From contig SCRE01000005.1 of NCBI GenBank assembly GCA_004297935.1, positions 62,001 to 126,000 of the forward strand: 64,000 nt of DNA, in the 5' to 3' direction. The translations under genes and the position numbers were made by a program. Under the pieces are notes generated by a model. The model ran no database searches and had not been told where the DNA came from. It saw nothing but the letters and a program-made list of their open reading frames with translations. Each line of letters opens with the position of its first letter. Position 1 is the first letter of the stretch. The stretch is from Microbacteriaceae bacterium. GTDB lineage: Bacteria > Actinomycetota > Actinomycetes > Actinomycetales > Microbacteriaceae. This document shows, piece by piece, positions 22,075-60,435 of this stretch.

Positions 22075-23493
22075 TCAGGCGATGATCGCCCAGGGATTCT
22101 CGATCAGGCGGGTGAGCGTCTGCAGGAATTGCGCGGCAAGCGCCCCGTCGACGATGCGGTGATCGGCGGACAGCGTGTAGCGCATCCGGTAGCGCGGCAG
22201 GATCTCGTCGCCGACGACCGTCGGCTCCCGCTTGGTGCCGCCGACCGCGAGGATCGCGCCCTCCGGCGGGTTGATGATCGCCGTGAACTGCTCCACGCCG
22301 AACATGCCGAGGTTGGAGATGGTGAAGGTGCCGCCGGAGATCTGCTCGAGCGACAGCTTCTTGTCGTTCGCGAGCGCAACGAGCTGCTTGGTCTCGGCGC
22401 CGAGCTGCGTGACGGTCTTGGTGTCGGCATCCGTGATCACCGGAACGACCAGGCCGTTCTCGGATGCGACCGCGACACCGATGTTGACCCGGTGGTGTAC
22501 CTGCATGGTGTCACTGGTGTCGTCGATATACGACGCATTGACCAGCGGATGCTCACGCAACGCAAGCGCGCTCGCCCGGATCAGCAGGTCGTTGACACTG
22601 ACCTTCGGCCGGCCGGATGCCGTCAGCTGCGTGTTCAGGTCGGCGCGCAGCTGCATGAGCGCCTCCGCGTCTGCCACGGCCGTCACGAAGAAGTGCGGGA
22701 TGGTGCGTGCGCTCTCGCCGAGACGGCGCGCGATCACGCGGCGCGTCTTCGTCATCGCGACGGACTCGGATGCGCGCTTCTCGTCGGCGCTCGTGGGCGC
22801 GGGCATGGCGGCGGGCGCGCCGCCTGCCTGCGCGGCGCCGGCCGAAGAACGTGTCGCGGCCGCAGGGGCCGGGGGCGCTGCCGGCGCGGCGGGTGCCCCG
22901 GCAGCGGAGGCGGCCTGCGCAGCAGCCTGCGCGGCCTCGGCTCCAGGGGCCAGCAGCCCATCGAGGTCCGTGCGGATGATCCGACCGCCTGGGCCGGTTC
23001 CGCGCACCTTCGACAGGTCGAGGTTGTTGTCTCGCGCGAGCTTGCGCACGTAGGGCGAGGCGAACCGACGCTCGCCGTCGGCAACGTCCTCCACTGGTCG
23101 ACCGTCTTCCGTTGGTCGAGTAACGAGCGACGAAGGAGCACGTGTATCGAGACCTGGCTCTGTGGTCTCTTGGTCTCGATACGCTTCGCTATTCGACCGC
23201 CGAGTGGCGTCGGCGGTCGGCGTCGCGGCAACCGGGGTCGCAGGGGCAGCGGCATCCGTACCGTCGTCGATCAGCGCGATCGGCGTGCCGATCGACACGT
23301 TCTCGCCCTCGGCGACGAGGATCTTCGACATGGTGCCGGCTTCGTACGCCTCGTACTCCATAGTGGCCTTGTCGGTCTCGATCTCGACAAGGATGTCGCC
23401 GACCTCGACCCTGTCGCCCGGCTGCTTGTGCCAGGTGGCGATCGCGCCCTCCTCCATGGTGTCGGAGAGCCGTGGCATGGTGATTTCGATCAT
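22075..23493 (-). CDS. pdhC: Dihydrolipoamide acetyltransferase, E2 of pyruvate dehydrogenase
   Basis: The protein is 472 aa. It has one N-terminal lipoyl domain (lipoyl Lys42 in ETDKATMEYEA), a linker, a peripheral-subunit-binding domain at about 144-178 (ASPYVRKLARDNNLDLSKV), an Ala/Pro-rich linker, and a catalytic acetyltransferase domain ending with DHRIVDG at about 444-450. It transfers the acetyl group to CoA and forms the core of the complex. It is third in the pdhABC operon, 21 bp after pdhB. The first linker (residues about 96-134) is encoded by a dispersed palindromic repeat that keeps the frame open. Confidence 0.95.
   Translation of the reverse strand: MIEITMPRLSDTMEEGAIATWHKQPGDRVEVGDILVEIETDKATMEYEAYEAGTMSKILVAEGENVSIGTPIALIDDGTDAAAPATPVAATPTADATRRSNSEAYRDQETTEPGLDTRAPSSLVTRPTEDGRPVEDVADGERRFASPYVRKLARDNNLDLSKVRGTGPGGRIIRTDLDGLLAPGAEAAQAAAQAASAAGAPAAPAAPPAPAAATRSSAGAAQAGGAPAAMPAPTSADEKRASESVAMTKTRRVIARRLGESARTIPHFFVTAVADAEALMQLRADLNTQLTASGRPKVSVNDLLIRASALALREHPLVNASYIDDTSDTMQVHHRVNIGVAVASENGLVVPVITDADTKTVTQLGAETKQLVALANDKKLSLEQISGGTFTISNLGMFGVEQFTAIINPPEGAILAVGGTKREPTVVGDEILPRYRMRYTLSADHRIVDGALAAQFLQTLTRLIENPWAIIA
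23093..23206. repeat. Dispersed palindromic repeat (family A) inside pdhC
   Basis: The segment reads GTTGGTCGAGTAACGAGCG, then GTGTATCGAGACCTGG, then TTGGTCTCGATACGCTTCG and CTATTCGACCGCC. This is the family-A intergenic palindrome seen at 43009-43112, 45650-45762 and 60325-60435. Here it lies wholly within the E2 coding sequence, in the flexible linker, with no stop codon in the reading frame. Confidence 0.85.
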
Positions 23494-23514
23494 GATTGTT
23501 CGCCCGTCTGTGAT

Positions 23515-24516
23515 CTAGCGGCGGCTGCGGTACCCGACCGCGTCGAGAGTCTGGCGGATGGCGCCGATCACGTCATCCGCGGAAGGCAGCGCGGCCGTCT
23601 CCAGCGGTTTCGAATACGGCATCGGCACCTCGGCCATGGCAACGCGCCGAACCGGCGCATCCAGATAGTCGAACGCGCCATCCGAGATCGTCGCGGCGAT
23701 CTCGGCGCCGATTCCGTAGGTGAGCCAGTCGTCTTCGAGGATCACGGCGGAGTGCGTCTTCTTGACGGACTCGATGATCGTCTCACGGTCGAGCGGGCGC
23801 AGACTGCGCAGGTCGATGACCTCGATGTCCAGGCCGTCCGACTCGGCGAGCTGCTGGGCGACCTGGTCGGCGACGTGCGCCATCCGGGAATACCCGATCA
23901 GGGTCAGGTCCTTGCCGGTGCGGGTGACGGCTGCCTTGCCGATCTCGGCCGGGATGTCCTCGTCGGGAACCTCGCCCTTGGTGTTGTACAGGGCCAGGTT
24001 CTCCAGGAACAGCACCGGGTCGTCGTCGCGGATTGCCGCGAGCATCAGCGCCTTCGCATCGGCCGGGGTGCTGGGTGCGACGACCTTCATGCCGGGCACG
24101 AACGCGTAGTACAGTTCGATGTTCTGCGAGTGCGTGGCGCCGAGCTGCTGCCCGCCGCCGCCGGGGGTGCGGATGACCATGGGCACCTTGGCCTGGCCGC
24201 CGAACATTCCATAGATTTTGGCAGCGTGGTTCACGATCTGGTCGATGGCGATCAGTGAGAAGTTGATCGTCATGATCTCGACGACCGGGCGCAAGCCCAG
24301 CATCGCCGCGCCGATGGCGGCACCGGTGAAGCCTTCCTCGGCGATCGGGGTGTCGCGTACGCGCTTCTCGCCGAATTCTGCGAGCAGACCGGCGGTGATC
24401 TTGTACGAGCCCTCGAAGATGCCGATCTCCTCGCCGATCAGGAAGACATCCTGATCGCGCAGCATCTCGGAGCGCAGCGTGTCGTGCAGTGCCTGACGGT
24501 AGGTCTTGATGCTCAT
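23515..24516 (-). CDS. pdhB: Pyruvate dehydrogenase E1 component, beta subunit
   Basis: The protein is 333 aa, the normal length for the alpha2beta2-type E1 beta subunit. Recognisable blocks are VFLIGEEIGIFEGSYKITAGLL, DTPIAEEGFTGAAIGAAMLGLRPVVEIMT, the FNFSL/AIDQIVNHAAK segment, GGGGQQLGATHSQNIE, and EVIDLRSLRPLDRETI in the C-terminal transketolase domain. With E1 alpha it decarboxylates pyruvate using thiamine diphosphate. The start codon overlaps the end of pdhA by 4 nt (ATGA), indicating translational coupling. A branched-chain 2-oxoacid dehydrogenase is a less likely alternative. Confidence 0.94.
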   Translation of the reverse strand: MSIKTYRQALHDTLRSEMLRDQDVFLIGEEIGIFEGSYKITAGLLAEFGEKRVRDTPIAEEGFTGAAIGAAMLGLRPVVEIMTINFSLIAIDQIVNHAAKIYGMFGGQAKVPMVIRTPGGGGQQLGATHSQNIELYYAFVPGMKVVAPSTPADAKALMLAAIRDDDPVLFLENLALYNTKGEVPDEDIPAEIGKAAVTRTGKDLTLIGYSRMAHVADQVAQQLAESDGLDIEVIDLRSLRPLDRETIIESVKKTHSAVILEDDWLTYGIGAEIAATISDGAFDYLDAPVRRVAMAEVPMPYSKPLETAALPSADDVIGAIRQTLDAVGYRSRR

Positions 24517-25676
24517 CGGGCGGCTCCTTGCGCGGGTGTTTGTGCGGGCGCGGAAGCCGCGGCCGATACGGCCGCCGCAGCCGGTGTCGGTGCAGGGTCG
24601 AACAGCGCCTGTCCAGGCAGCCTGCGGGAGTCGTTGGGAACCGGGGTCGCATACGTGTAGTCGAACAGGGTGGAGACATCCGGGAAGGGGCTCGCCTCGG
24701 CGAACGCCGCGGCCTCGACGACGATCGCCGTCTCTTCCGCGTCGATCTGCTTCACTGAGGCTTCGTCGAGCACGCCGCTCGCGACGAGTTTTGCGGCGAA
24801 GGTGTGCACCGGGTCGTGTTCCTTCAGGGCCTCGACTTCTTCGGTCGAGCGGTATTTTGCGGGGTCGACGACCGAGTGGCCCTTGAGGCGTTCCGTCATC
24901 ACCTCGAGCAGGAACGGCTTGCCGCTGCGCGCCGTCGCGACCGCGCGCAGCGCAGCTTCGTAAACCGACTCGGGGTCGAGCCCGTCGACGCGTTCGGATG
25001 CCATTCGATACGACGCTGCTCGCTTGTACAGTTCCGGCTCGCCCGAGGCCGCGTCGACGGTGGTGCCCATGCCGAGTCCGTTGTTGATGATCACGTAGAC
25101 GATCGGCAGGTTCCAGATCGCAGCAAGGTTGAGCGACTCGTGGAACGCGCCGATGTTGGTGGTGCCGTCACCCATGGTGCACAGCACCACGTCGTCGCCG
25201 TCGCGGTAGTCGATCGCCAGGGCCGCACCGGTGGCAAGCGGCAGCTGGCCGCCGACGATGCCGTAGCCGCCGAGCAGACGCTGGGTGATGTCGAACATGT
25301 GCATCGATCCGCCCCAGCCCTTGGAGACGCCGTCGATGCGGCCGAACAGTTCGGCCATCACGCGCTTCGGCTCGATTCCCTTGCTGATCGCATAGCCGTG
25401 TTCGCGATAGTTGGTGAACAGGTAGTCGCTGGGGCGCAGCGCCGACAACAGCCCGACGACCGCAGCTTCTTCGCCGAGGTTGAGGTGGCAGTAGCCGCCG
25501 ATCAGTGCCTGCGTGTATGCGCGGGCCGCGCGTTCCTCGAAGCGACGGATGAGGACCATCTGTCGATAGAAGCCGATCAGACGGTCGTGGTCTTGAGCCG
25601 ACCGCGCTTGCGCCTTCGGGCGGGACGGTGCGGCCGCGCGGGCCGTTGTCTTCCGCGTCCGCGTTTGAGCGGTCAT
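24513..25676 (-). CDS. pdhA: Pyruvate dehydrogenase E1 component, alpha subunit
   Basis: The protein is about 387 aa from ATG 25676 (GAAGGGAGC upstream); an open frame to 25739 extends into the promoter. The thiamine-diphosphate motif is visible as GDGTTNIGAFHESLNLAAIWNLPIVYVIINN, and GGSMHMFDITQRLLGGYGIVGGQLPLATGAALA is typical of PdhA rather than branched-chain E1. A Lys/Arg/Ala-rich tail precedes the domain (residues 1-30), and a Pro/Ala tail follows it (about the last 25). It is the first gene of pdhABC, divergent from a TetR regulator. Confidence 0.94.
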   Translation of the reverse strand: MTAQTRTRKTTARAAAPSRPKAQARSAQDHDRLIGFYRQMVLIRRFEERAARAYTQALIGGYCHLNLGEEAAVVGLLSALRPSDYLFTNYREHGYAISKGIEPKRVMAELFGRIDGVSKGWGGSMHMFDITQRLLGGYGIVGGQLPLATGAALAIDYRDGDDVVLCTMGDGTTNIGAFHESLNLAAIWNLPIVYVIINNGLGMGTTVDAASGEPELYKRAASYRMASERVDGLDPESVYEAALRAVATARSGKPFLLEVMTERLKGHSVVDPAKYRSTEEVEALKEHDPVHTFAAKLVASGVLDEASVKQIDAEETAIVVEAAAFAEASPFPDVSTLFDYTYATPVPNDSRRLPGQALFDPAPTPAAAAVSAAASAPAQTPAQGAAR

Positions 25677-25725
25677 CGGTGCTCCCTTCGTCGACCTTCG
25701 TGGGGTCGGACGTCTTGTGCGTATC

Positions 25726-25777
25726 GTCATTAATGACACTAGCGAGTATCATTGTATCGCAGGGGTGGTAACCCTGC
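25726..25777. promoter_or_regulatory. Candidate operators between pdhA and the TetR gene
   Basis: Three overlapping symmetries lie here. One is the perfect palindrome GTCATTAATGAC (25726-25737). The second is the inverted repeat AATGA...TCATT (25732-25753). The third is a hairpin-like GCAGGG-GTGGTAA-CCCTGC (25759-25777). On the pdhA strand TACAAT (about 25751-25756) is a plausible -10. Binding by the divergent TetR protein is a reasonable guess only. Confidence 0.5.
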
Positions 25778-42977: not shown

Positions 42978-43112
42978 CAGGGCTTTTTCACGGTCGGCGA
43001 TGGTCAACTTGGTGGTCGAGTAGCGAGGTACGAGCGTATCGAGACCCGTATCGAGATCTCATTGCGGGGTCTCGATATGCCTGCTCGCTGCGCTCGCGGG
43101 CTACTCGACCAA
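42978..43112. repeat. Left copy of a long inverted repeat flanking the purF segment (family A)
   Basis: From CAGGGCTTTTTC (42978) through GGTGGTCGAGTAGCGAGG, CGTATCGAGACCC, GGGGTCTCGATATGC, GCTCGCTGCGCTCGC and GGCTACTCGACCAA (43112), this is nearly identical to the reverse complement of 45650-45796. The element itself is palindromic at its ends (GGTCGAGTAG / CTACTCGACC). Confidence 0.88.
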
Positions 43113-43198
43113 CGGGGTGATGCAACTCGATGACTGTGAAAAGACCCTGCCGGTGTCCGGGGATTCCGGGAGGATGTGGATTCTGGGAGGATAGGGAC

Positions 43199-45649: not shown

Positions 45650-45796
45650 TTGGTCGAGTAGCCCGCGAGCGCAGCGAGCAGGCGTATCGAGACCCCGCAA
45701 TGAGGTCTCGATATGGGTCTCGACACGGGTCTCGATACGCTCGTACCTCGCTACTCGACCACCGAGTTGAACATCGCCGACTTCGAAAAAGCCCTG
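45650..45796. repeat. Right copy of the long inverted repeat flanking the purF segment
   Basis: It starts GTTGGTCGAGTAGCCCGCG, continues with CGCAGCGAGCAGGCGTATCG, CCCCGCAATGAGGTCTCGA, GGGTCTCGATACGCTCG and CTCGCTACTCGACCACC, and ends CGAAAAAGCCCTG. Its reverse complement matches 42978-43112 closely; an extra GGTCTCGACACG-type stretch makes this copy a little longer. It lies in the purF-purM intergenic region, where both promoters must be. Confidence 0.88.
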
Positions 45797-59519: not shown

Positions 59520-60332
59520 ATGGGCACCGATGGCGCGCCGGACTGGTCTATCCAGGAGATCGCGCGTCTGGCCGGAACGACCAGCAGAACCCTGCGTCAC
59601 TACGGCGACGTCGGGCTGCTCTCGCCGAGTCGCATCGGCAGCAATGGCTACCGCTATTACGACCGCAGTGCCCTCGTGCGCCTGCAGCGCATCCTGCTGC
59701 TGCGGGATCTCGGTCTCGGCCTACCGGCGGTCGCCGGCGTTCTCGCGAACGAGACGGACACGCCGCACGCACTGCGCGGCCACTTGGAATGGTTACGCGC
59801 GGAGCAGGGACGGCTGGCGCGACAGATCGCATCCGTCGAGGTGACGATCGCGGACCTGGAGGGTCCGCCCGATGGGAGACACGATGGGAAACACGATGGG
59901 AAAGGAGGCGAACGACCGATGGCACACGACATGCTCGACGGGTTCGATCACACGCAATACAGGGACGAGGTCGAGCAGCGCTGGGGCGCCGACGCCTACG
60001 CGAAGAGCGACGCCTGGTGGCGTTCGAAGACGGATGCCGAGAAGAAGCGATTCCAGCAGGCACACGTCGACATCGCCCGCGACTACGCAACCGCGCGGGC
60101 GGCGGGAAGGGACGTCGCGAGTGAGGAGGTGCAGGCCATCGTGCGGCGACACGTCGACTGGTTGAACCTGTCGGCGCCCGTTACCGGTGGCCCGATCACC
60201 CGCCAGCGGTTGCTCGGCTACGGCGACATGTACGTCAGCGACCCGCGCTTCGCGGCGAACTATGGCGGCATCGAGGGTGCGGAGTACGTGCGGGCCGCTA
60301 TCGCGGTCTACGCGGCGGCGTTGGTCGAGTAG
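59520..60332 (+). CDS. TipA-like MerR-family regulator
   Basis: The protein is about 270 aa from ATG 59520 (GGAGG 5 nt upstream; the ATG at 59508 overlaps that site). The N-terminal MerR helix-turn-helix is WSIQEIARLAGTTSRTLRHYGDVGLLSPSRIGSNGYRYYDRSALVRLQRILLLRDLGLGL. A coiled-coil follows. The C-terminal half (MLDGFDHTQYRDEVEQRWGADAYAKSDAWW...VSDPRFAANYGG) is a TipAS antibiotic-binding domain, as in TipA/Mta. It should activate its own promoter when it binds a thiopeptide-like or other drug. The last three codons and stop (LVE then TAG) are formed by the edge of a family-A palindrome. Confidence 0.93.
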   Translation: MGTDGAPDWSIQEIARLAGTTSRTLRHYGDVGLLSPSRIGSNGYRYYDRSALVRLQRILLLRDLGLGLPAVAGVLANETDTPHALRGHLEWLRAEQGRLARQIASVEVTIADLEGPPDGRHDGKHDGKGGERPMAHDMLDGFDHTQYRDEVEQRWGADAYAKSDAWWRSKTDAEKKRFQQAHVDIARDYATARAAGRDVASEEVQAIVRRHVDWLNLSAPVTGGPITRQRLLGYGDMYVSDPRFAANYGGIEGAEYVRAAIAVYAAALVE

Positions 60333-60435
60333 GTCGCTCTGCGACCGTATCGAGACCCGCGCAGGTCGCTATCGGGAGTCTCGATACGCCCGCTCGATAT
60401 GCCCGCTCGCTGCGCTCACGGGCTACTCGACCGGC
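60325..60435. repeat. Family-A palindromic repeat overlapping the MerR gene end
   Basis: It starts GTTGGTCGAGTAGGTCGC, continues CGTATCGAGACCC, GAGTCTCGATACGCCCGC and GCTCGCTGCGCTCACGG, and ends GCTACTCGACCGGC. The first 8 bases are coding. A short family-B-like segment (AAAACCGGAAGAG ... AAAGTCCGGTCGAGCG) follows at about 60441-60510 and runs into the end of the YczE gene. Confidence 0.85.

Follow-up and report, generated by a model that had tools for sequence, protein, structure and literature searches.

The window, by which we mean the whole 64,000-nucleotide stretch of DNA analysed here, encodes components of the pyruvate dehydrogenase complex on its minus strand. The gene pdhC (22075–23493) is an ORF of 472 codons for the dihydrolipoamide acyltransferase (E2) of this complex, assigned by Pfam and NCBIfam; its best NCBIfam match, TIGR01349 (pyruvate dehydrogenase E2), has E=1.9e-120 and lies under the curated cut-off. 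Directly upstream on the same strand is an intact E1 beta gene (23515–24516; PRK09212, above the NCBIfam cut-off), and the E1 alpha gene (24513–25739; TIGR03182, above the cut-off) is likewise intact. Three Pfam domains were recognised in E2, namely the lipoyl domain (residues 3–75; 23269–23487; PF00364), the peripheral subunit (E3)-binding domain (residues 144–177; 22963–23064; PF02817) and the catalytic acyltransferase domain, 2-oxoacid_dh (residues 241–471; 22081–22773; PF00198), all read from the minus strand.

A repeat-derived segment in the E2 linker

Given the Pfam boundaries of the lipoyl and E3-binding domains, the 38 codons at 23093–23206 (minus strand; E2 residues 97–134) fall within the linker that joins the two. 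Read directly from the sequence, this segment holds two head-to-head units of a dispersed palindromic repeat of the form GGTCGAGTA-hairpin-TATCGAGACC. Unit 1 (GGTCGAGTAACGAGCGACGAAGGAGCACGTGTATCGAGACC) occupies 41 bp on the plus strand (23114–23154) and was recovered by a genome-wide pattern match (C35:85114–85154). A 17-bp spacer (23155–23171) separates it from unit 2 (GGTCTCGATACGCTTCGCTATTCGACC), which occupies 27 bp on the minus strand (23172–23198) and was located through half-site matches in the window. The initial annotation had placed a palindromic element here, coding in frame for about 38 residues of the E2 linker. Its position is correct, and the ORF and the Pfam domains both agree with this reading. 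The core of the insert covers E2 residues 99–127. A truncated extra half-site, GGTCGACC, lies at the edge of the insert (23096–23103), which makes 23093–23206 (114 bp) a fair outer bound; comparable extra half-sites also flank the repeat copy in CysN described below.

Both pdhC units have diverged and pair imperfectly, and they carry GTAA and ATAG where most units have GTAG. Compared with shuffled sequences, the DNA fold of the segment is somewhat stronger (z = −2.2), with modest stability. A general repeat finder applied to 22700–23700 alone reported no repeat; the other copies lie elsewhere in the genome.

The initial annotation attributed the open reading frame to an altered GAGTAG stop, an explanation that considers the wrong strand. 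As the gene lies on the minus strand, the GAGTAA at 23118–23123 is on the antisense, non-coding strand of pdhC, and the sense reading opposite GAGTAACG (23118–23125) is CTC GTT ACT CGA. The arm that could potentially end the ORF is the sense GGTCGAATAGC (GAATAGC) of the other unit, unit 2, which is read TCG AAT AGC and thus keeps its TAG out of frame. Modelling with AlphaFold, using the alignment of E2 relatives, predicted residues 79–143 with pLDDT values below 50 and without secondary structure, as would be expected for a flexible linker. E2 is presumably expressed at full length, in which case the tryptic peptides SNSEAYR, DQETTEPGLDTR and APSSLVTRPTEDGRPVEDVADGER would be expected from the insert.

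To compare this linker across species, E2 relatives were sought in about 85,000 species genomes; the nearest came from Microbacterium sp. STN6 and several Cryobacterium species, which points to Microbacteriaceae as the probable host family. The insert residues are absent from all 16 aligned relatives, none of which carries a resembling sequence. Their linkers are unrelated low-complexity stretches of variable length in which alanine, proline and acidic residues abound. Nor was the pdhC linker found conserved in distant genera in a form dissimilar to the repeat, in line with the insertion proposed in the initial annotation. When 20 genomes were searched for the insert peptide, the genome of origin was the only one to contain it. 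Because the comparison set consists of other genera, with the nearest E2 at 72% identity, the insertion can be placed only after the split from that lineage. Moreover, the linkers of the closest relatives are equally long or longer without the repeat, so the insert need not have lengthened the pdhC linker on balance.

A dispersed palindromic repeat family

Searching the whole genome (3.95 Mb, 41 contigs) with the 114-bp segment returned 41 places at E≤1e-3, with a best non-self match of 1.6e-15. The pattern GGTCGARTA-N12-40-TATCGAGACC gave 154 matches (79+75, some of them overlapping), whereas the reversed control gave none. These numbers and the best non-self match show a genuine repeat, well beyond what chance would produce. 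In most units the hairpin is preceded by GAGTAG, whose final G takes part in stem pairing, and there are additional palindromic arms farther out. For closer inspection we used 89 repeat clusters within 458 kb of fetched stretches, which are a sample of the clusters in the genome and not the full set. Most of these clusters lie outside coding ORFs, which bears out the earlier description of the element as dispersed and mostly intergenic. The window itself contains further copies, located by half-site matches and ORF scoring: dimers at 43014–43110, with no coding ORF that has coding flanks, and at 45652–45760, with no ORF coding on both flanks, and a copy of the family at 60323–60432, again with no coding ORF that has coding flanks.

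The unit was found in nine of 40 genomes (its own and 39 relatives), all belonging to one family in which its distribution is patchy. The 154 matches in its own genome compare with 43, 42 and 26 in three other carriers and few in the rest. In G027, a carrier from another genus, inner stem pairing reaches 0.89, 0.83 and 0.72, against 0.49, 0.38 and 0.37 when the arms are reshuffled among units. In G028, a further carrier, two inner-stem positions pair at 0.93 against 0.52 after reshuffling, and stem covariation in the genome of origin is weaker and points in the same direction. Judged by these compensating changes, the hairpin of the repeat is maintained.

No mobilising enzyme was found when the genome and its relatives were searched for Y1_Tnp (PF01797), the domain of RAYT transposases. 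It was absent from the genome of origin and from all eight other carriers, and the sole match among 22 relatives was in a non-carrier; a Y1/RAYT transposase was therefore rejected as the mobiliser. No plasmid copies of the element were seen, an Rfam search gave no match, and among open-licence papers we found none on this repeat sequence or on REPs in Microbacteriaceae. About 16 MITE-like elements of 150–223 bp enclose repeat copies. They have terminal inverted repeats GGG(TC/CT)TTTTCACAGTC, with ends GGGTCTTTTCACAGTC / GGGCTTTTTCACAGTC, and occur at 42980–43147 of the window and at C4:98301, C10:50497, C10:327947, C18:87933, C41:42430 and other sites. No autonomous partner with such ends was seen; matches to the ends were single, or paired less than 225 bp apart around repeats. 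At the pdhC copy we looked for terminal inverted repeats of about 15–30 bp, the MITE criterion, and saw none, and MITE-like ends were thus rejected as the carrier of this copy.

In-frame copies in other genes

Searches with the E2 protein and the insert peptide also matched an ORF for the sulfate adenylyltransferase subunit CysN, and the stretches around the listed copies were fetched for this reason. ORFs were scored by a hexamer model trained on long ORFs. This model is coarse, so coding potential was demanded on both flanks, followed by a domain check. Nine genes among the 89 clusters carry an internal in-frame copy with coding flanks on both sides, and most of them have recognised domains on either side. 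Contrary to what the initial annotation implied, the pdhC case is hence not unique, as its own genome holds at least nine internal in-frame cases. A second E2 (C35:147981–149525) has the repeat in the same lipoyl/E3-binding linker. Further hosts of internal copies are HrpA, Lhr, SMC, a DUF3516 helicase and HsdM, a fused FAH hydrolase-like/RraA-like protein with the repeat between its two domains (L163:2648–4219), and a serine hydrolase of the beta-lactamase Pfam family (L136). CysN is a tenth case, with the repeat near its N-terminus. Since the CysN start codon shares bases with the CysD stop (TGATG) and no ATG, GTG or TTG occurs between this repeat and the P-loop, translation has to run through the repeat. 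Several units are also present at the C-terminal end of an ABC transporter ATPase.

Two kinds of candidate were set aside: CysD, which may start at a codon downstream of the repeat, and N-terminally extended ORFs at further copies (L169, L187 and L201 among them), whose start codons are probably wrong. In the upstream part of the CysD ORF (L137:15630–17036), where translation is uncertain, a short tandem array, GLDTGLDKGLDKGLDKGLDKGLDTGLDTGLDT, of GGTCTTGATAAG-type 12-mers adjoins the palindrome. A second hairpin module, approximately CTTCGAGACGGCCGC..GCGGCCTCCTCAGG, lies in frame beside the main repeat in four proteins, with the peptide RRPxAASSG: HrpA (L207), the DUF3516 helicase (L205), the second E2 (L131) and the serine hydrolase (L136).

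Long ORFs account for 306,660 bases, about two-thirds of the sampled 458 kb. Copies inside genes are therefore far rarer than this share would predict, which fits a loss of most such insertions. In G027, two of 25 clusters are in frame within genes, one in E2 (L254:2060–3541; lipoyl domain 14–85, E3-binding domain 202–236, repeat at about 157–187) and one in TsaE (L260:2397–3110), while none of the 23 clusters of G028 is. The E2 lipoyl/E3-binding linker thus bears the repeat in three proteins from two genera.

Comparing the host proteins with solved homologues reveals empty sites. When HrpA is aligned with E. coli HrpA (9ggr), residue 216 corresponds to chain residue 271 and residue 299 to chain residue 272, and the E. 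coli protein has nothing to match the 82 residues in which the repeats lie. Lhr has 54 residues where 7lhl, the M. smegmatis Lhr, has 10, and the alignment of HsdM with the type I methyltransferase 3khk leaves a gap in the latter at GRVASASERIETP. As the solved homologues of HrpA, Lhr and HsdM do not have these extra residues, they are, on the alignments, insertions. PDB alignments of the DUF3516 helicase stop short of its repeat region, and the best alignment of SMC begins after the repeat. Residues 97–167 of Lhr (L179) form a second insertion relative to the M. smegmatis protein and contain SDSERIETDSGSR, which looks like the repeat peptide SASERIETR in decayed form.

The frames in which the repeat can be read differ in their consequences. 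A forward unit has two open frames (GRVASASERIET and SSSERQRAYRD), and its third is closed by GAGTAG, read GTC GAG TAG. A reverse unit is open in all three frames (GLDTLAGARYST, SRYARWRSLLD and VSIRSLALATR). Within the in-gene repeat segments, all 11 GGTCTCGA half-sites, spread over eight genes, fall in codon phase 0; one more match, at Lhr residue 515, lies outside the repeats and was left out of this count. The hydrophobic frame VSIRSLALATR is unused in in-gene copies. Since the units of a dimer are linked and some copies are related, this bias is a clear tendency, weaker than the raw counts and carrying no precise probability, and it suggests that insertions favour coding phases giving soluble peptides.

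Probable origin and tolerance of the insert

Taken as a whole, the pdhC segment is very probably a REP-like dimer that was inserted into the E2 linker, is translated, and is tolerated under a filter of length, phase and disorder. A head-to-head dimer would have entered between the lipoyl and E3-binding domains, presumably by transposition or copying, and would now be translated as about 38 extra residues of E2. The repetition of the copies, together with the empty sites in other genes, points to insertion. Survival would have depended on three joint conditions, namely a disordered linker as target, a length that keeps the frame, and an open phase that avoids GTC GAG TAG and gives a soluble peptide. 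The same filter probably acts genome-wide, so that most in-gene copies would be lost and the survivors would lie in frame in interdomain linkers or near the termini of otherwise conserved proteins.

The initial annotation left open whether the repeat is tolerated or recruited as a linker. Tolerance fits better and recruitment is unsupported, given the predicted disorder, the freely varying linkers of relatives and the same event in many unrelated proteins. The pdhC insert is thus probably a harmless, floppy and presumably neutral stretch of linker. Had the repeat instead been selected as a ready-made flexible linker that improves the reach of the swinging arm or the spacing of the domains, its presence in the same lipoyl/E3-binding linker of three E2s from two genera (pdhC, the second E2 and the G027 E2) would be accounted for, as would the phase bias towards soluble peptides. 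We consider this improbable, because the same repeat occupies seven other unrelated internal sites, the linkers of relatives are equally long without it, and purifying loss of harmful insertions predicts the phase bias and the linker location equally well. Similarly doubtful is the proposal of a portable linker cassette, whose arms would be kept translatable in several phases as a soluble disordered peptide and would be repeatedly favoured in interdomain linkers, chiefly in the swinging arm of E2, as in these three proteins.

Less probable again is a role at the nucleic-acid level, in which an mRNA hairpin tunes pdhC translation or decay, or the DNA serves as a site for gyrase or a nucleoid protein, with translation being incidental. 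The covarying hairpin and the fold of the segment would suit such a role, and REPs have been reported to act as RNA and as gyrase sites (PMC3733652). However, Rfam had no match, the diverged and imperfectly paired pdhC units fold with only modest stability, and the insertions are spread over many unrelated genes without regulatory logic. That the gene is an E2 pseudogene, or the region misassembled, is very unlikely: the insertion is known from one draft genome, but no stop interrupts the 472 codons of the ORF, coding potential is seen on either side of the insert, the domains are complete, the upstream genes for E1 alpha and E1 beta are intact, and similar in-frame copies occur on several other contigs. 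A GC-rich, low-complexity linker might also merely resemble the repeat, as E2 linkers are of low complexity and evolve fast. Copy number and the reversed control refute such a coincidence, which the match of E=1.6e-15 to another copy and a dimer with both termini intact leave with almost no probability.

The preferred reading, a tolerated in-frame insertion, has precedents. The Rickettsia palindromic elements (RPE-1 and others), described by Ogata and colleagues, are in-frame palindromic repeats in protein genes (PMC10969869, PMC3767692). Like them, the present repeat consists of dispersed palindromes that lie in frame in unrelated genes and add tens of residues at tolerated sites. It falls into the same functional class, being dispersed, in frame in unrelated conserved genes and absent from homologues. 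This likeness is one of description; the units here end in GGTC/GACC. RPEs measure about 100–150 bp and occur in Rickettsia and Wolbachia, whereas the present units are 27–45 bp, often dimeric, and belong to an actinobacterial family. Nearly half of the R. conorii copies were reported in ORFs, compared with about 10% in genes here.

GTAG/CGTC-tagged REPs with intragenic copies were described by Di Nocera et al. 2013 in Proteobacteria, Cyanobacteria, Chloroflexi, the PVC group, Chlorobi, Bacteroidetes, Spirochaetes and Thermotogae. The text of that paper does not mention Actinobacteria, and its authors note that REP insertions may be neutral in flexible linkers (PMC3733652). Those REPs share with the present repeat short hairpins, head-to-head dimers and a mostly intergenic location with a minority of copies in frame. 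Their dimers encode 20–30 residues and many of their hosts are DNA/RNA enzymes and helicases, as here. GTAG adjoins the hairpin in most of our units, a feature that may or may not correspond to the unpaired GTAG tag at one end of the hairpin that marks the GTAG superfamily. Unlike theirs, the present hairpin lies between GGTCGA...TCGAGACC arms, and no RAYT-type transposase was found in the carriers. Enterobacterial RU/ERIC-like repeats are also found in genes (Delihas 2007; PMC2759123). Like these and other MITEs, the repeat is a small mobile element fused in frame to genes. RU/ERIC/MITE units are MITE-like and 100–170 bp long, whereas the pdhC copy is without terminal inverted repeats; some other copies, unlike that of pdhC, lie within 150–220 bp elements that have them. 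The mode of action is the same as that of RPEs and intragenic REPs, a likeness of action rather than demonstrated descent from any of those families.

In-frame insertions of palindromic repeats have mainly been known in Rickettsia and Proteobacteria; the present ones occur in an actinobacterial family. Rickettsia offers the best-known examples of selfish repeats turned protein, and there the small genome of a host-bound bacterium could be held responsible. For annotators, the present case is a warning that these proteins hold repeat-derived stretches, which are not conserved domains. With a 3.9 Mb actinobacterial genome, about ten proteins, clean empty sites and a phase filter, this family offers a new lineage in which to ask which insertions survive, and why.
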